The position numbers and the translations under genes were made by a program. This document shows positions 2,279 through 11,456 of a stretch of DNA of 64,000 nucleotides, in pieces. Source of the stretch: Candidatus Poribacteria bacterium (GTDB lineage: Bacteria; Poribacteria; WGA-4E; WGA-3G); the NCBI GenBank assembly GCA_009841255.1, contig VXMD01000067.1:1-64000 (forward strand), read 5' to 3'. Numbering within the stretch: position 1 is the first letter of the stretch; each line of letters starts with the position of its first letter. The notes below the pieces were generated by a model, which saw only the letters and a program-made list of their open reading frames with translations, was not told the DNA's origin and ran no database searches.

Positions 2279-2430
2279 TTGACATCCTCACTATTCTAAA
2301 GAATAGTGATTCCTTTTGTTTCTTATAGAAACATTCTCTGGGTTTAAGCCAGAGCAACAGGGACTTCTAACCGGAAGCCCAAGGGCGGTGCCATCCGGGA
2401 CAAGCCCATTGCCGCCACTACAGGGTCGCC
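2279..2430 (-). ncRNA. Predicted right end and omega (guide) RNA of tnpB element 1
   Basis: A 9-bp stem with a two-base AA loop (2289-2297/2300-2308) lies about 35 bases beyond the tnpB stop. On the minus strand it is followed by AGGATGTCAA, which matches the right-end style I recall for tnpB-only elements in cyanobacteria. In TnpB systems the omega RNA overlaps the 3' end of tnpB and runs to the right end, with the guide being the flanking DNA. On that model the guide would start at about 2278 and run to lower coordinates. The upstream boundary (2430) is a guess. Confidence 0.4.
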
Positions 2431-3585
2431 AAAGCCACCCTGATACTTTCTCAAAATGTTAATCGCACCTACGCCGTCGCGATTATACTTAAAACCACAT
2501 TTGCAGGCGTATTCACGATTATTAGGTTTCTTTCTATTGCCACAAGATGGACAGGTTTGTGAGGTGTAGGACTCATCAATCTGCACAACCTTGATACCTA
2601 ACACTTTTGATTTATAGGTAATCAAAGACGTAATCTTACCAAATGCCCATTGATGTAAACGCTGATTGGCACGATTGCCATAGTTGATATTCTCGCGTAT
2701 GCCAGTTAAATCTCCAATGACAATCGTGCCAATCCCTTTTGTGCGGCAATATTTCACAAACTTTGTAGTGTGTTTATGGAGGGCGTCTTTGATTTGGTTG
2801 TCAATCTTTGTGATGCGTTTCCACTTACGCCTTGTGAGTTTCCACCAGCGTTTGGAGTGGCGTTTACATCTACTGATAGCATGATTGAACTCAGATAGCA
2901 CCTTGTTACGCAGTCGGTACAGCGACCTGATGTACCGTCCATTGTAAATATGCGTATCAATTCCGTCATGTGTTACCATAGGGTGTATTTCGCCAATATC
3001 CACACCGACAACACCTTCGCCAGATTCAGTGTCACCCACTTCATATCTATAGGAAAAATGTAACTCCCACTGACCATAGTTGTATACCAAATCAATAGTA
3101 GCAATATGTTCCGCCTCAGACATGTTAAAGTTAGACGGCAGTTGTATGCCTAATTTATCAGTGCCAGACCCCATTGAAAGAACAAGGCGTTTACCAAATA
3201 AACTATTATCCACAAAGGCAATAGCAGACTTCAACCAACGCGTCGTCATATAGTTCTTAGGCTTATTCGGAGGTTTAGGATTCGCAACGCCACCACTCTT
3301 TTTTAACGCAGAGTAAGATTTCCACGACTTGAAATATTGCTTCCTAATCGCCTGAATACTTTGAGAATGCAACGGCTGTGACTTAGACAAATTCTTATCC
3401 ACCCAACCCTCACAATCCTTACCAAACCAGAAATTATCATGAGCATGCGGATAACCACGACGCCACTGATACATGTCCATCAAGTGCAGACACTCATTCC
3501 ATACAGAGGCTGACGCAGAATTAATCTCCGAAAAACACGCCTGTTTCTTTACCTTCAATATTTTCGTTCTGTGGAAATACGCCAT
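2344..3585 (-). CDS. tnpB: TnpB-family RNA-guided endonuclease (IS605/IS1341 type)
   Basis: This 413-residue protein has the TnpB layout: an N-terminal beta/helical part, a RuvC-like domain starting at VGVDIG (catalytic Asp about 196), a second motif IVIGDLTG (about 288-295), a four-Cys zinc ribbon (C345, C348, C361, C363) and the last motif YNRDGVGAINI (Asp about 370). TnpB proteins cut DNA next to a short motif under guidance of the omega RNA made from the element's right end. The residue at the second catalytic position reads Asp where many relatives have Glu. No tnpA is present, so the element cannot move by itself. It has its own promoter at 3630-3658. The N terminus (MAYFHRTKILKV) is slightly atypical but the length fits the family. 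Confidence 0.88.
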   Translation of the reverse strand: MAYFHRTKILKVKKQACFSEINSASASVWNECLHLMDMYQWRRGYPHAHDNFWFGKDCEGWVDKNLSKSQPLHSQSIQAIRKQYFKSWKSYSALKKSGGVANPKPPNKPKNYMTTRWLKSAIAFVDNSLFGKRLVLSMGSGTDKLGIQLPSNFNMSEAEHIATIDLVYNYGQWELHFSYRYEVGDTESGEGVVGVDIGEIHPMVTHDGIDTHIYNGRYIRSLYRLRNKVLSEFNHAISRCKRHSKRWWKLTRRKWKRITKIDNQIKDALHKHTTKFVKYCRTKGIGTIVIGDLTGIRENINYGNRANQRLHQWAFGKITSLITYKSKVLGIKVVQIDESYTSQTCPSCGNRKKPNNREYACKCGFKYNRDGVGAINILRKYQGGFGDPVVAAMGLSRMAPPLGFRLEVPVALA

Positions 3586-4375: not shown

Positions 4376-4520
4376 CATAGTACCCCGTCCTAAAGGACGG
4401 GGCTTGTTAGAGGGTTAGCCCCAACAAGCCTGTTGTAATAACGGGTTTCTCGTTTCACAGAGGATGGCATCCCATACCTCTCCACGAAGGGCGCAGGCCG
4501 CCCTGTAAAGTATATTCAAA
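4376..4520 (-). ncRNA. Predicted right end and omega RNA of tnpB element 2
   Basis: A stem CCCCGTCCT/AGGACGGGG (4383-4391/4394-4402) with an AA loop lies just beyond the tnpB 2 stop. It has the same 9-bp stem and 2-base loop as the end of element 1. The omega RNA would overlap the tnpB 3' end and finish near 4376; the 5' boundary is a guess. Confidence 0.4.
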
Positions 4521-5626
4521 GCCGCGTTGTGGTCGCGGTCAAGTTTCAAGCCACAAGATTTACAATGGAACACACGCTCGGACAACTTCAGTTTCACAGG
4601 CGATTGCTGACAACACCCCGAACAGGTTTGACTTGTGTGGTGTGGCAGCACTTGATGGAAATGTTTACCATCGCGTTTGGCTGCCCAATGGCACCACTCA
4701 AAGAATATACCCCACGCGGCATCAGAAATAGACTTGGCGAGGTGTCGATTCTTCACCATATTGGAAGGTTTGAGTTTCTCAGCGACAACGGCATCAAAGT
4801 CTCTGTGGTGAAAAAGTTTGTAGACGGTTTTGGCGATAAAGTCAAGACGTTGGCATGCGATAATATCATGCTGTTTTGCCAACGCGTCTTTCGCCTTATA
4901 CCAGCGTTTGCTCCGATACGTCTTGCGCGACAAATCCCGCTGAAGTTTTACGAGTTTGCGTTCAGCTTGTCTATAAAAGCGGGGGTTATCTTCCGTTTCG
5001 CCATCAGAAGTCGTCAGAAAGTTGTGTGTGCCGACATCCACACCACAGGCGGATTTCGGAACACATTTCAGCGTGTCAGGCACTTCACAAACGATGAAGA
5101 CATACCACCCGCGCGCCGTCTTTTTCAGCGTGACCTCTTTCGGGTCTCCGAGGATAGGACGGTGCTGGCGGATTTTCACTTCACCCAGTTTCGGCACTTT
5201 CAACAAGTTATGCCGTTGGCACGTTTCACGAATCGGATTTTGGCGGACACGTTCACCCGTCTTAAGTGTGTGTTTCCGCAGACTCCACGACAACGAACGG
5301 ACAGAGGCTCTATAGCGCGGGTATCCCTTCTTTTGCGAACCTTCTCGACACCGACGCTGAAAATGCTCGTGTGCTGCGTTGACGCGCTTGATGGTAGATA
5401 CCTGCATATCCTGCGGATGCTCGGAATAGTGCGAGGTGGTGGACCGGAGTTTCTTCAGATGGTTGATCTGGTCATACATCGACACAGATTTGCGACCATA
5501 GTCCCACATCTGATTCCGCATCTGGAGCATGTAGTTCTGCAACTGCTTTTGGTGCTTGAATTCGGAATAAAGCCACTGCTCTTGAGGCTTCGTAGGATAG
5601 GCACGATATTTAAAGGTGCGTTTCAT
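4415..5626 (-). CDS. tnpB: TnpB-family RNA-guided endonuclease (IS605/IS1341 type)
   Basis: A complete 403-residue TnpB, not closely similar to the copy at 2344-3585. It starts MKRTFKYRAYPTKPQEQ, the usual family opening, so I prefer the ATG at 5626 over a GTG at 5644. It has RuvC motif CGVDVG (Asp about 197), AVVAEKLK with the canonical Glu (about 283), a zinc ribbon of two Cys pairs (CSGC and CKSC) and the last motif LDRDHNAALNI. All three acidic residues are present, so it may be an active guided nuclease. The gene has a consensus promoter (5729-5757) and an end hairpin just downstream. There is no adjacent tnpA. Confidence 0.9.
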   Translation of the reverse strand: MKRTFKYRAYPTKPQEQWLYSEFKHQKQLQNYMLQMRNQMWDYGRKSVSMYDQINHLKKLRSTTSHYSEHPQDMQVSTIKRVNAAHEHFQRRCREGSQKKGYPRYRASVRSLSWSLRKHTLKTGERVRQNPIRETCQRHNLLKVPKLGEVKIRQHRPILGDPKEVTLKKTARGWYVFIVCEVPDTLKCVPKSACGVDVGTHNFLTTSDGETEDNPRFYRQAERKLVKLQRDLSRKTYRSKRWYKAKDALAKQHDIIACQRLDFIAKTVYKLFHHRDFDAVVAEKLKPSNMVKNRHLAKSISDAAWGIFFEWCHWAAKRDGKHFHQVLPHHTSQTCSGCCQQSPVKLKLSERVFHCKSCGLKLDRDHNAALNILYRAACALRGEVWDAILCETRNPLLQQACWG

Positions 5627-5728
5627 TTGATTTTCGCGTCTCACGCTTTAACCGCTTTTCAAGTCGGTCGGCGAGGAGGCTACACTTGGTGTGTGTAGTT
5701 GAAAAGTCCTCGCCCACGCGATAAAAAT

Positions 5729-6182: not shown

Positions 6183-6313
6183 CTGAGGAATTGCTGAGGG
6201 TAATTGTCTGAATCAGGATAACCCCCTATACCCTCTTATTGTTTCCATCGGATGCGAACTCCGTTTGCAGGATATTTACAGACGCATCCCAGAAGTCTTC
6301 GAATAAAAAGTTG
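6183..6313. other. Gene-free stretch with a CTGAATCAGGAT repeat word
   Basis: No gene seen. CTGAATCAGGAT near 6208 recurs in related form near 8325 and 14708, a dispersed intergenic word. Confidence 0.4.
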
Positions 6314-6353
6314 GATCACTTTTCTGGAGGTGCCAGGGGTGGCTCTGTGAGCA
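6314..6353 (-). pseudogene. C-terminal remnant of the AE-repeat membrane protein family
   Basis: On the minus strand this piece reads a decayed version of the tail TEPPPGPPEK found at the end of the gene at 7074-7487, with a TGA directly after GAAAAG. The rest of the gene is missing. It lies next to repeat copy A just as the intact gene lies next to copy B, so a duplicated gene-plus-leader unit appears to have lost most of its coding part. Confidence 0.55.
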
Positions 6354-6376
6354 GAGTGATAGCATTGGAATTAAAA

Positions 6377-6720
6377 GGGAAATGTCCGTTTATTAGACGA
6401 CATTACTAATGTTCCTCCATTTAAATCAAACTAAAAACATCCGTATACCGAACACTGTGGGGCAGTAGGGATTAATGCCCCTCGCACACTTCACATCGTG
6501 TGCTCCAGCTTCAAACAGCAAGAATAGATATTCAGGGATAAAATCTATTCTGAACTAACCTTAGTGTGCGTGTCTTTGAAATCGGGTCGGGTTAGGGAAC
6601 CCCGCTGCGGTCAGAAACCGTATCTACCGTTCAACTTTCAAAACACGCTTGGGAATTTGGGTTTGGATCTCTTTTATAGATTGTGCCAAACCACTTATAG
6701 AAACGTTATTAATTGTAAAC
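6377..6720 (-). repeat. Long direct repeat, copy A (structured leader)
   Basis: About 290 bases from 6377 are nearly identical to copy B (from 7585), and weaker similarity continues to 6720. Three stems are kept: 6459-6464/6476-6481, 6484-6489/6498-6503 and 6521-6529/6543-6551. Promoter-like sites at 6712-6740 and 6797-6825 would transcribe it on the minus strand. No open frame common to both copies is evident, so it is best read as an untranslated leader, a small RNA or a mobile repeat. Confidence 0.75.
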
Positions 6721-6740
6721 GAGTTACGAAAAACTGTCCA
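6712..6740 (-). promoter_or_regulatory. Promoter-like site, array member
   Basis: On the minus strand TGGACA (6735-6740) and TACAAT (6712-6717) are 17 bases apart, at the upstream end of repeat copy A. Confidence 0.5.
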
Positions 6741-6796
6741 GTCTTTTTTTGCGGTGCAGAGAATTCAGGGTTTTCTCCTACCGTAGTTCTGTAATT

Positions 6797-6825
6797 ATTA
6801 TACCATATTTGTGGTGTGGTGTCAA
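6797..6825 (-). promoter_or_regulatory. Consensus promoter, array member
   Basis: On the minus strand TTGACA (6820-6825) and TATAAT (6797-6802) are 17 bases apart. It faces repeat copy A. Confidence 0.7.
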
Positions 6826-6924
6826 ATTTTTCTTTCAAAAAAATGTGTAGCGGGTTTTTGTTGGGTTTCACTGCGCTCTACCTGGGGGAAACACCCAAGC
6901 AAAAACACCTACATTATACGGTTA

Positions 6925-6953
6925 ATTATACTGTAGGCTGTATTTTTTGTCAA
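6925..6953 (-). promoter_or_regulatory. Consensus promoter, array member
   Basis: On the minus strand TTGACA (6948-6953) and TATAAT (6925-6930) are 17 bases apart. Confidence 0.7.
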
Positions 6954-7073
6954 ATTTTTTCCAATCGGTGAGTTGTCACCCCCTTATGCCTCTAAATCTT
7001 TTCGGAATGCGCGAAAACTATTGGCTAAGGATGCATTGAGACTCAACTGCTTGAGGCGTTTGAGATCCTCTAA

Positions 7074-7487
7074 TTATTGTTTCGATCGCTTTTCTGGAGG
7101 TCCCGGGGGTGGTTCTGTGAACGGCTCGCCACGCGCTTCGGCTTGCCTTCTGCGTTGATCCCACTCTGCGATTTCCTGATATACCTCAGCTTTCGCCTCA
7201 GCTTTCGCCTTAGCTGTTACCTCAGCTGTTACCTCAGCGATAAGTTGCTTCTCTTTTTTCAGTGTGTCTCTGATACGCTGAAACATGATGTCTATTCCTT
7301 CTTCAAGAATAGTCAGCATTGTTGCGGCTGACATTATTTTTGAGATGTTCTCGGCTACGGCATAGAGGGAATTAACAAAGCCATCGCCTCTGAGCATGAA
7401 CTGATGTAGGAAGACTCCAATGAGAAGTGCCATCCCAATGATGCTGAAAGTGATCATCGCGTTCTCAGCGTTTCGAACGGTGAACAT
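7074..7487 (-). CDS. Membrane protein with AE-rich repeats, unknown function
   Basis: I choose the ATG at 7487 (137 residues) because a promoter at 7519-7547 puts transcription start near 7512, past the earlier candidate starts. The protein starts MFTVRNAENAM, has one strong membrane segment (ITFSIIGMALLIGVFLH) and a possible second hydrophobic stretch, then a charged coiled-coil-like part with the tandem units AEVT and KAEAKAEV. It ends in a Pro-rich tail (EPPPGPPEKRSKQ). A module with AEVY is shared with the small gene at 4145-4348, and a decayed tail copy is at 6314-6353. Function unknown; it looks like a lineage-specific multicopy family. Confidence 0.6.
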   Translation of the reverse strand: MFTVRNAENAMITFSIIGMALLIGVFLHQFMLRGDGFVNSLYAVAENISKIMSAATMLTILEEGIDIMFQRIRDTLKKEKQLIAEVTAEVTAKAKAEAKAEVYQEIAEWDQRRRQAEARGEPFTEPPPGPPEKRSKQ

Positions 7488-7518
7488 CGATGATCGCCTG
7501 TTTTGGTCTTCCATACAA

Positions 7519-7547
7519 AATATAGCGTGTCCCCGAAAAAAAGTCAA
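7519..7547 (-). promoter_or_regulatory. Promoter of the AE-repeat membrane protein gene
   Basis: On the minus strand TTGACT (7542-7547) and TATATT (7519-7524) are 17 bases apart, directly before the gene. Confidence 0.65.
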
Positions 7548-7584
7548 ACAAAAAAGGACAAGGGACGAGGAGGAAAACGAGAAG

Positions 7585-7956
7585 GGGAAATGTCCATTAA
7601 GTAGACGACATTACTAATGTTCCTCCATTTAAATCAAACTAAAAACATTCGTATACCAAACACTGTGGGGCAGTAGGGATTGATGCCCCTCGCACACTTC
7701 ACATCGTGCGCTTCAGCTTCAAACAGCAAGAATAGATATTCAGGGATAAAATCTATTCTGAACTAACCTTAGTGTGCGTGTCTTTGAAATCGGGTCGGGT
7801 TAGGGAACCCCGCTGCGGTCAGAAACCGCATTTACCGTTCAACTTTCAAAACACGCTTGGGAATTTGGGTTTGGGGTTCTCGCCTTACAGCGGTGTGTGT
7901 ACATTACCGTAGATTGAGCCAAACCACATATATGAACGTTGTTATTAATTGTAAAT
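7585..7956 (-). repeat. Long direct repeat, copy B (structured leader)
   Basis: Partner of copy A at 6377-6720. It lies upstream of the intact membrane protein gene. In the second stem the right arm reads GTGCGC instead of GTGTGC. On the plus strand this breaks an A-T pair, while on the minus strand it becomes a G-U pair, so the fold is kept only in minus-strand RNA. Confidence 0.75.
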
Positions 7957-8480: not shown

Positions 8481-8509
8481 TTGCGAAACCCCGGCAACTA
8501 TGCTATAAT
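8481..8509 (+). promoter_or_regulatory. Promoter of the UPF0182 gene
   Basis: TTGCGA (8481-8486) and TATAAT (8504-8509) are 17 bases apart, with an extended TGC before the -10 box. Transcription would begin about 8515, just at AGGAGG (8517-8522), leaving an extremely short leader. Confidence 0.7.
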
Positions 8510-8531
8510 GTCTCATAGGAGGCATTTCATC

Positions 8532-11456
8532 ATGACGGCAGACCTTGCCATCGCACAGTTACTTTTAAGTATACTCCTGATCGGTGTTACCTTAATATGG
8601 GGTATCTTTCGGTACCGACGGAGTGGCTACTGGCGGCGCGGTGTTCATAACAAATTGCAGGCATATCTGCTCTGGACGCTCAGCGCGTTCATCACCCTTA
8701 GTTGTTTCATACCTCTGGCGTATCTTTATACAGAACACCTCTGGTTCGAAAACGTCGGATACGCTGATGTGTTCTGGGGATTTCAGAAGGTCCGGTGGGG
8801 CGTCTTTGGCGTCTGTTTCATCATCGCCGCTGGATTTATGAACGCCAACGCCGCGATCGCGCACATATTGTGTCCGGAATCCCGCGAGTTTCGGCGGTGG
8901 ACACATACACAGACCTTCTCTTTCCATCGGATGGTCATCTGCCTCACGCTGATTGCGGCATTCCTGCTCGCAGCACCAATGCTCCTGTTGGACGATATCG
9001 TGCTTCGGTACCTGAACCAGCCCGACACACCCCTCGTCAGCGAAGAAGGGGCGGCAGCCGGATCTCTCCATTTCGGGCTGGACCGGAATTTCTATCTCTT
9101 CAGTTTCCCGCTCCACCGATGGGTGAGCCTTTGGGTAGAGATAATGCTGTGGGTAACGTGTGTTGTCGTCGGGTTGCTGTATAATTTCTATTACCGTCGA
9201 GACGCGCACACAATGGCACGCGTGAAGCGACATATCATCTTCCACGGCTCGGTGCTATGGGTGTTGCTGCTGATCGTCGGCGGCTGGCGGAGTTATGTGA
9301 ACCTCTGGGACAAGGTTTATACGCAACCCTTGACCAACGGCTTGCGGACACTCCACGGCTTGTTTTACGTCGACTTTCATCTTGCGGGTGCCACGAAACT
9401 TTATTGTGGTGTGCTGATAGGTATCGCAATCGTTATCGTGATTAACATCTTCTGGCGGAAACGGCTGTTGTGGTATGTGACCGTAGCGGTGTGGGGCTTG
9501 AGTTATGTGCTGTTGATTCACGCATATCCGTTGGGCCTCCACGTGGTCCGCATGCGTGTAGAGCCGTTTCTCAAAGAGGGACGGTACTTACAGCGGCATA
9601 TCGAAGAGACACGTCGTGCCTTTGATCTCGATGAGATTGTCAGGGTCGACCATGTTCCTGGGGTCGCGACGCTGGAAATGATCACGGAGAACGCTGAAGT
9701 CAAGAAGAATATCCAGATTTGGGATCGACGCGTGCTGTATGAGGCACTCCGTGAAACGCAGATTAAGCCGCATTACAACTTCCACCCCTATACCGATGTC
9801 GACAGATACACAGTCGATGGTGAATATCGGCAGGTTCTGATAGCCGCCCGTGAAATTGATCCCGGTGCCGAGATTACGGGGTGGGACCGCCTGAAAACGG
9901 ATCTGCGCTCCTTTACGCACGGGTATGGCGTGTGTGTCGCACCCGTGAACGAGTTCGTTGGCGAGGGTTTACCGAAACTTTGGGTCAAGGATACGCCGAT
10001 AGATAGCGAATATGAAGAACTGAAGGTAGAATACCCGCAGATTTATTATGGTGAGATGATCCGCAATTATATGATTGTGAATACCGATCGCGCTGCGAAT
10101 CGTGCTGGACGCGGTTTGGACCTCGACAGTGTTAACAGCGTTGTGGAAAGTCCAGAAATACCTGAATGGATGCGGCATACATACGCCGGGAATGGCGGCG
10201 TGCCTTTAGGCGGTTGGTTCCGCCGACTCTGTTTCGCACTCCGATTCGATTTCCTCCCAATCCTGATCTCAGAGAAGTTGACACCGGAAAGCCGAATCAT
10301 GTTCCGGCGAAGAATCGGTACCCGTCGAAACGAACGCCTCGTCAAAGACCGTGTTTCATACATAGCGCCCTTCCTGAATTACGACCCTGACCCGTATATT
10401 GTGATTCACAACAAACAGTTGTCTTGGATCATTGACTTCTATGTGACGAGTCGGTATTACCCGAACGCGCAGATGTATGTGGACGATAAGACGCAACTCA
10501 CAGACAGTGCGTTATATGAGGAACCGGATTTTGAGACGTTCAACTACATCCGGAATGCCGGTGTCGCTGTCGTCAACGCTTATACCGGCGCGGTGGATTT
10601 CTATGCCATTAAGAAAGATGAAGCCGTGATGCAAACTTACCAGAAAGCGTTTCCAAATCTCTTTAAATCGCTATCGGAGATACCGGCGGGGTTGGCAGCG
10701 CACTTGCGGTATCCGGATTACTTGACCCGGATTCAAGCGAGACTCTACGGCGATTATTATCGGCAAGCGAGCGGTTTTTATGATAATAGGAACCCGTGGT
10801 CGATACCGAAAGAGGCGTATTATTCCTCAGAGGCGGATCAAGAGATGATGCCTTACTACGCGATGCTGAAGTTGCCGGGTGAGGAGAGAACTGAGTTCGT
10901 GAATGTGATTCCATTCGCGCCGCGGGACCGGGAGAAGCAGTTGAAGGCGTGGATGGTGGCACGCTGTGATCCACCCCATTACGGTGAGCGTATCGTCTAT
11001 GTGCTACCTGAGAATGCAGGGGTCGCCGGACCGACGCAGGTCGAGGACGATATTAACAAAAAAACCGGTGATCAACAGCGCGGTTGGCAAGCCGCGAACG
11101 ATGTGATTCGGGGCAATTTGCTGATTATCCCGATTGAGGATGCCCTGTTCTATCTCGAGGCGATTTATTTGCAAGCGAAGAAGCCAGAGGGTGAAGATGG
11201 CGATAACGACAAACCGCGGCGTCCGAAGTTAGAGATGGTGGTTCTGAAGGCGGGATCGAATGAACTTGAGGCGGTGCAGGCGCAGACGTTTGATGAAGCG
11301 TTGGATATGTTGTTGCTGGGGATCCCGGCGAATGGTGAAACGCCGATGAATGGTGAGCAGCCGTCAACGTTGGCGGAGTTAGTCCAACAATATCGCGATC
11401 GAGACGCCGATAGCGACCGGCTCCTCAAGCAGATTCTCGAGAAGATCACAGAATAG
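8532..11456 (+). CDS. UPF0182 family large membrane protein
   Basis: The ATG at 8532 has AGGAGG nine bases before it and gives 974 residues, normal for the family. The first 350 residues hold about seven or eight membrane helices; the remainder is a large, probably extracytoplasmic domain. It contains the family landmarks FNYIRNAGVAVVNAYTGAV, DPDPYIVI, LSWIIDFYVTS and AHLRYPDYLTRIQA. The molecular role of UPF0182 (COG1615) is not established to my knowledge. The gene stands alone with its own promoter; the next gene is convergent. Confidence 0.88.
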   Translation: MTADLAIAQLLLSILLIGVTLIWGIFRYRRSGYWRRGVHNKLQAYLLWTLSAFITLSCFIPLAYLYTEHLWFENVGYADVFWGFQKVRWGVFGVCFIIAAGFMNANAAIAHILCPESREFRRWTHTQTFSFHRMVICLTLIAAFLLAAPMLLLDDIVLRYLNQPDTPLVSEEGAAAGSLHFGLDRNFYLFSFPLHRWVSLWVEIMLWVTCVVVGLLYNFYYRRDAHTMARVKRHIIFHGSVLWVLLLIVGGWRSYVNLWDKVYTQPLTNGLRTLHGLFYVDFHLAGATKLYCGVLIGIAIVIVINIFWRKRLLWYVTVAVWGLSYVLLIHAYPLGLHVVRMRVEPFLKEGRYLQRHIEETRRAFDLDEIVRVDHVPGVATLEMITENAEVKKNIQIWDRRVLYEALRETQIKPHYNFHPYTDVDRYTVDGEYRQVLIAAREIDPGAEITGWDRLKTDLRSFTHGYGVCVAPVNEFVGEGLPKLWVKDTPIDSEYEELKVEYPQIYYGEMIRNYMIVNTDRAANRAGRGLDLDSVNSVVESPEIPEWMRHTYAGNGGVPLGGWFRRLCFALRFDFLPILISEKLTPESRIMFRRRIGTRRNERLVKDRVSYIAPFLNYDPDPYIVIHNKQLSWIIDFYVTSRYYPNAQMYVDDKTQLTDSALYEEPDFETFNYIRNAGVAVVNAYTGAVDFYAIKKDEAVMQTYQKAFPNLFKSLSEIPAGLAAHLRYPDYLTRIQARLYGDYYRQASGFYDNRNPWSIPKEAYYSSEADQEMMPYYAMLKLPGEERTEFVNVIPFAPRDREKQLKAWMVARCDPPHYGERIVYVLPENAGVAGPTQVEDDINKKTGDQQRGWQAANDVIRGNLLIIPIEDALFYLEAIYLQAKKPEGEDGDNDKPRRPKLEMVVLKAGSNELEAVQAQTFDEALDMLLLGIPANGETPMNGEQPSTLAELVQQYRDRDADSDRLLKQILEKITE

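Follow-up and report, generated by a model that had tools for sequence, protein, structure and literature searches.

Functional base pairing of one end of a bacterial messenger RNA (mRNA) with the other is known from a handful of single genes: icaR, hbs and possibly RNAIII. In icaR of Staphylococcus aureus the 5′ and 3′ untranslated regions (UTRs) of one mRNA pair with each other (PMC3868564), and already in S. epidermidis the 3′ UTR motif is not conserved (PMC7821165). For hbs of Bacillus subtilis, PMC7821165 relates, citing Braun et al. 2017, a 14-nt pairing of the two UTRs that protects from RNase Y, and UTR pairing has also been probed for RNAIII (PMC7821165). Small RNAs aimed at bacterial 3′ UTRs are likewise described, as in the RsaI-icaR and Spot 42-hilD pairs (PMC7821165). 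The locus analyzed here lies in a 64,000-nt stretch of DNA from a Candidatus Poribacteria bacterium (assembly GCA_009841255.1, contig VXMD01000067.1, positions 1 to 64,000; hereafter the window) and consists of two copies of one segment, copy A (6374-6720) and copy B (7582-7955). Poribacteria are sponge-type bacteria, and we found no literature on their UTRs.

We assign a probability of roughly 0.6 to the joint reading that the copies represent minus-strand 5′ leaders, about 330-360 nt long, of genes encoding exported lamin-tail proteins of ~1000 residues, that both copies have been orphaned by loss of these genes, that the 5′ and 3′ UTRs of intact family members would pair, and that the orphans may act in trans. 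This reading is based on leader homology, conservation of structure, the orphan state of both copies, complementarity between leader and 3′ UTR, co-occurrence of the two complementary elements, and conservation of the leader without its gene.

A duplicated leader and the genes it precedes

The two copies contain a direct repeat (6374-6666 and 7582-7874) with 96% identity over 293 nt and 11 differences, and their whole extents are 88% identical with one large indel. A preliminary description had reported a duplicated segment with three common stems and a strand-specific base change, and both the duplication and the stems are present as it stated. The leader features, promoter-like sites and reading frames given below all lie on the minus strand unless stated otherwise. 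Copy A, identified through its homology to the 5′ leaders that precede exported-protein genes in relatives, runs from the -10 box to a remnant start codon, and copy B was delimited by comparison with copy A.

A search for further copies, which the preliminary description had proposed, returned no third full copy in the 5.7 Mb genome. Related genomes mostly hold one or two full copies each, most of them at a fixed position before the start of a protein-coding gene (the cargo gene) or its remnant, unlike dispersed mobile elements such as miniature inverted-repeat transposable elements or repetitive extragenic palindromes, which would have numerous scattered full-length copies with terminal inverted repeats. 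Within the window, no Rfam (release 15) family scored above its gathering threshold, the best match being plus-strand noise with an E-value of 2.6; a transfer RNA and transfer-messenger RNA search gave no match, nor did an exact-match search with the core sequence of the segment against a genome contig collection. An unrecognized housekeeping RNA (6S, transfer-messenger RNA or RNase P) was considered and dropped, given that the leader ends in a ribosome-binding site, an ATG and a signal peptide.

We searched 60 related genomes, 36 of them from the same genus, and found a homologous segment in 30 of these 36. In G010, G018, G001, G009, G021, G028, G022, G020 and others, the leader ends in a ribosome-binding site immediately followed by the start codon of the cargo gene, which is the arrangement expected of a leader family. 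The predicted cargo is an exported protein of 936-1095 residues with a signal peptide (for example MLSNKWTFSLTSLVVILVLALVAPSAMA) and a Pfam LTD (lamin-tail) domain; this domain is the sole lead to its function, as searches of NCBIfam and PDB gave no match. The cargo is a multicopy family within one family-level lineage of Poribacteria.

The window retains the same junction in both copies, with the ribosome-binding site and ATG at 6395-6419 in copy A (TGGAGGAacattagtaATG) and at 7603-7627 in copy B, as in the relatives. No intact coding sequence follows either leader: the reading frame after leader A stops after 10 codons (MSSNKRTFPF*, 6371-6403) and that after leader B after four (MSST*, 7597-7611). 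In G010, an uncultured Poribacteria genome (OX639992.1), the order is leader, exported protein (1052 residues), AE-type open reading frame (ORF), leader and exported protein, and in the window it is leader B, no protein, AE-repeat ORF, leader A, no protein and the remnant of a second AE-type ORF. Comparison of the two orders indicates that both window leaders are orphans of a tandem pair whose cargo genes have been deleted. The second remnant (6296-6350, C-terminal ...TEPPLAPPEK*), which is 78% identical to 7066-7120, shows that a unit of leader, cargo and AE ORF had been duplicated.

The preliminary description had assigned the segment to the AE-repeat gene, as a leader or small RNA regulating a membrane protein. 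The assignment of a structured leader stands, and the AE-repeat ORF (7074-7547; 157 residues, no Pfam hit) does follow leader B on the same strand. However, it has a promoter-like site of its own (7547-7519), and in the relatives the leader precedes the exported-protein gene, with the AE-type ORF lying between two such units. Given this site and the G010 gene order, the AE ORF is best regarded as a neighbor left next to the leader once the real cargo had been deleted, and its ownership of the leader is very improbable.

The evidence supports the minus strand as the one on which the leader is read. All eight promoter-like sites between 6200 and 8480 lie on it, compared to 4.1 +/- 2.3 in shuffled sequences, and three of the eight match the consensus TTGACA-17-TATAAT at 12 of 12 positions, in agreement with the direction of transcription that the preliminary description had predicted. 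In the relatives, moreover, the gene immediately after the segment has the orientation that this strand requires. Copy A is preceded by a proximal site (TGGACA-17-TACAAT, 6740-6712) and further 12/12 sites (6825-6797 and 6953-6925), and copy B by TTGACA-17-TACAAT (8040-8012) and other sites at 8169-8141, 8220-8192 and 8314-8286. Before each copy, three to four such sites of near-consensus sigma-70 type thus form an array, and sequence resembling this upstream region occurs in related genomes. Strong promoters, a long folded 5′ UTR and an exported cargo are features that the Poribacteria leader shares with the mRNAs of surface-layer and other abundant surface proteins, for which neither a complementary motif in the 3′ UTR nor orphan leaders are known.

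Hairpins of the leader

The leader is predicted to fold into four hairpins. P1 (GGTTTGG...CCAAACC) spans 6660-6692 in copy A and, with a longer loop, 7868-7925 in copy B. The three stems in which relatives were compared are P3 (6521-6551 and 7729-7759), P4 (6484-6503, GCACAC:GUGUGC in copy A; 7692-7711, GCGCAC:GUGUGC in copy B) and P5 (6459-6481, GGGGCA:UGCCCC in copy A; 7667-7689 in copy B). The structure of these three stems is settled by compensatory changes in relatives. Among ~50 leaders with 13 distinct sets of P3 arms, 96% of alignment cells are paired and three pairs changed on both sides, and in eight distinct arm sets of P4 and P5 99% are paired and six pairs changed on both sides; because the arms were excised at fixed length, the percentages paired are biased toward structure, and the two-sided changes are independent of this. 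None of 500 shuffles reached the observed covariation score for P3, the same being true for P4/P5, and slid versions of the arms scored far lower. Successive two-sided changes can be followed in the series GCACAC:GUGUGC, GCGCGU:ACGCGC and GUGCGU:ACGCAC. The conservation of all three stems in the minus-strand RNA is thus upheld, and further copies show no stem-breaking changes beyond isolated single mismatches.

The argument for strand specificity from the window alone is less complete. The base change singled out in the preliminary description (T6501/C7709, in P4) turns the A-U pair of copy A into the G-U pair of copy B on the minus strand, with predicted energies of -8.8 and -8.4 kcal/mol, respectively, versus -4.4 kcal/mol for copy B on the plus strand. 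The proposal that the fold is kept in minus-strand RNA only therefore agrees with what is seen, and it rests on one change. Another difference between the copies (6621/7829), in a small, variable hairpin nearer the 5′ end of the RNA, is of the opposite kind, giving A.C on the minus and G.U on the plus strand in copy A, so that the single G-U argument is weak by itself and the relatives decide. Whole-segment folding gave z-scores of -3.5 (minus) versus -1.2 (plus) for copy B and of -2.1 versus -1.9 for copy A.

Complementary blocks at the two ends of family genes

Shortly past the stop codon of the cargo genes, ahead of a terminator-like hairpin, we found the motif (U/C)UCAGGGAU...AACUAACC, whose reverse complement is the core sequence GGUUA(N)GUU...AUCCCUGA of the leader. 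The complementary core comprises P3, the first of the three stems, together with the unpaired GGUUAGUU that precedes it, in antiparallel order to the motif. In copy A it corresponds to AAGGUUAGUU followed by hairpin P3 with loop AUCCCUGA (6521-6562), and copy B holds the same sequence (7729-7770). The 3′ motif was not found in cis at the window locus.

The two elements occur together. In a census of 68 family genes readable at both ends, 40 have both, 21 neither and seven the 3′ motif alone (some of these with unreadable starts), and none has the leader core alone (Fisher 6e-12, uncorrected for relatedness); all 40 testable genes with a leader core thus carry the 3′ motif. The motif is lesioned in three of the eight genes clearly lacking a leader core (L042, L126 and L138) and in none of the 40 that have one (p = 0.003, likewise uncorrected). 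Pattern searches recovered the 3′ motif or the leader core one to eight times in most same-genus genomes, compared to zero in nearly all for the reversed control. Other genera of the window's own family also have the pair, and beyond that family, in other orders and families, the searches gave stray matches and no genuine cargo/motif pairs. One of the occurrences in another genus (L208, G070:C176:6500-16900) has the core and the 3′ motif at the two ends of an apparent polycistronic unit of ~9.4 kb encoding exported proteins.

Two further observations concern individual genes. In L173 (G019:C132) the GGUUA/P3 core has been lost from the leader and the 3′ motif is intact, making this gene a natural mutant. 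In L143, L153 and L154 the leader loop reads AUCUCUG instead of AUCCCUG and the 3′ UTR still reads CAGGGAU; pairing would here survive as RNA alone, through a G-U pair.

Such an arrangement resembles icaR in carrying complementary 5′ and 3′ UTR motifs in one mRNA, as seen in family members of related genomes; the window could pair in trans alone. The motifs themselves are alike, with UCCCCUG in icaR and, in Poribacteria, UCCCUGA in the 5′ leader and UCAGGGA in the 3′ UTR. In contrast, the 3′ UTR of icaR covers the Shine-Dalgarno sequence, whereas in Poribacteria the 3′ UTR matches the P3 core, which precedes the start codon by about 50-190 nt, and icaR is a single gene, while the Poribacteria pair is kept across a multicopy family and several genera. 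With hbs, as far as PMC7821165 recounts it, the family shares a short conserved complementarity between UTRs and a plausible stabilizing role, but hbs is a single gene without orphan leaders, and no P3-type architecture appears in that account. A family-wide complementary pair with leaders outliving their genes is not described in PMC3868564 or PMC7821165.

The same complementarity might instead operate in DNA, with core and 3′ motif as the ends of a mobile or recombining cassette and RNA pairing as a by-product. The motifs are indeed inverted copies over up to ~55 nt that flank a multicopy gene family, and loss of the gene between them is common. However, the spacing between the two conserved blocks varies independently at each end and with the gene (about 5-14 nt versus 13-100 nt), and a covarying hairpin is found at the leader end and none at the 3′ end; these two differences make a DNA-level role less likely. 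Furthermore, conservation extends beyond the motif into leader and promoter, inspection by eye showed no target-site duplication, and the deletions spare leader, ribosome-binding site and start codon and do not stop at the repeat. We regard this DNA-level reading as quite unlikely.

For the family genes, the leader core and its own 3′ UTR motif pair with predicted energies of -17 to -27 kcal/mol. In trans, the window orphan leader is predicted to form duplexes of -50.5 and -49.7 kcal/mol with the 3′ UTRs of L118 and L119, two intact relatives in the same genome (contigs C27 and C18), compared to -17 to -18 +/- 3-4 kcal/mol for shuffled UTRs and to self-folds of -11 and -12 kcal/mol. The complementarity is almost continuous over ~45-55 nt, and the leaders of L118 and L119 themselves pair more weakly with their own 3′ UTRs (-35 to -39 kcal/mol). 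In this respect the window leader has what a trans-acting antisense RNA would need, namely strong complementarity to mRNAs from other loci of its genome. RsaI-icaR and Spot 42-hilD resemble the trans action proposed for the orphans, but neither small RNA originated as the leader of a gene lost from the family it targets.

Several results weigh against a pairing function of this kind. Cognate leader/3′ UTR pairs were not significantly better matched than permuted ones (p = 0.88), and a type-level double-centered test of cis-covariation was not significant (p = 0.15), a null outcome due to the near invariance of the complementary blocks, in which compensatory changes linking one end to the other are almost absent. 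Five clearly leaderless genes (L043, L130, L150, L156 and L173) keep an intact 3′ motif. Lastly, a partner motif was found in most genomes with orphan leaders, and no intact 3′ UTR partner was found in G011 and apparently also in G016, G032 and G013 (89-94% complete), so that trans pairing with the 3′ motif cannot be the whole reason why orphans are conserved.

Leaders that persist without their genes

The orphan state is common, with 17 of the 30 same-genus genomes keeping a leader without an intact cargo gene behind it. In nine aligned orphans, identity is 0.93-0.98 in the promoter, 0.99 in the P3 core and 0.93-0.96 in the ribosome-binding site, falling to 0.46-0.58 where the start codon and signal peptide are encoded, to 0.47 or less upstream of the promoter, to 0.45 or less between the leader and the next gene, and below 0.5 elsewhere outside the leader. 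Such a pattern would be expected if selection acts on the leader itself. A leader peptide was considered and rejected, as the short remnant frames are not conserved across orphans. In one orphan locus (L051/L027, G005:C1:4660207-4660695), the leader lies ~430 nt from a 3′ UTR motif, an internal deletion having taken most of the exported-protein gene and kept both complementary ends.

The window copies could also be dead relics of a deleted gene, conserved by chance and through the short time elapsed. Both reading frames are cut, the 3′ motif is absent in cis and the copies derive from a recent tandem duplication, but in nine orphan relatives conservation of the leader far exceeds that of the flanking sequence, and within the window the core is identical between A and B, while the short coding remnant accounts for three of the 11 differences. 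On this evidence a relic is unlikely.

Alternatively, the leader may have been retained as promoter and 5′ UTR of whichever gene now lies downstream, a redoxin/copper-oxygenase gene in many orphans and the AE ORF in the window, the 3′ UTR complementarity being irrelevant in orphans. Conservation of promoter and ribosome-binding site in the orphans agrees with this, as do the redoxin gene found within about 300-1000 nt at many orphan loci and the orphan genomes lacking a 3′ UTR partner. Yet the poorly conserved region between leader and next gene and, in the window, the separate promoter-like site of the AE ORF and the absence of an adjacent redoxin gene argue in the opposite direction, and a promoter role leaves the 99% identity of the P3 core unexplained. 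Such co-option is a rather unlikely explanation.

Under the preferred reading, in which the copies are leaders that would pair with family 3′ UTRs, the leader would fold into P1, P3, P4 and P5 and end in the ribosome-binding site, and in an intact gene the ends of the mRNA would meet through pairing of GGUUAGUU with AACUAACC and of loop AUCCCUGA with UCAGGGAU, a contact that could control mRNA stability or translation. The window orphans, under selection and behind strong promoters, would find pairing partners in the 3′ UTRs of L118 and L119 and may act in trans. We infer transcription, pairing in the cell, a regulatory effect and action in trans. The suggestion in the preliminary description of a leader or small RNA is accordingly kept in amended form, in that the conserved leader, having lost its gene, may function as an RNA in its own right.

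Other features surround the locus. Two TnpB/IS605 OrfB genes of differing sequence (4415-5644 and 2344-3585, minus strand) separate the orphan leaders from the next conserved neighbor gene, suggesting insertions at the leader locus, and a UPF0182 family membrane protein gene (8481-11456, plus strand) is divergent from it. At 1841-1899 the window contains two 28-nt direct repeats, 96% identical and 31 nt apart (AACCTTCCA.CTTGACTCCCTTCCACCC).

Taken as a whole, the near-perfect antisense match of the leader core to the mRNA tails of the family suggests a previously unseen, family-wide system of head-to-tail pairing. A broader possibility, which we put forward tentatively and hold to be doubtful, is a family-wide RNA network in which 5′ leader and 3′ UTR are built to pair and gene-less leaders bind the 3′ UTRs of surviving members in trans, coordinating or silencing them. 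The same complementary pair recurs in dozens of exported-protein family genes across several genera, and nature provides mutants of both kinds, with the leader lost and the 3′ motif decaying, or with the gene lost and the leader kept, so that the purpose of pairing between bacterial 5′ and 3′ UTRs becomes directly testable. For these Poribacteria, the orphan leaders would offer a concrete evolutionary route by which an mRNA leader may become a free-standing regulatory RNA.
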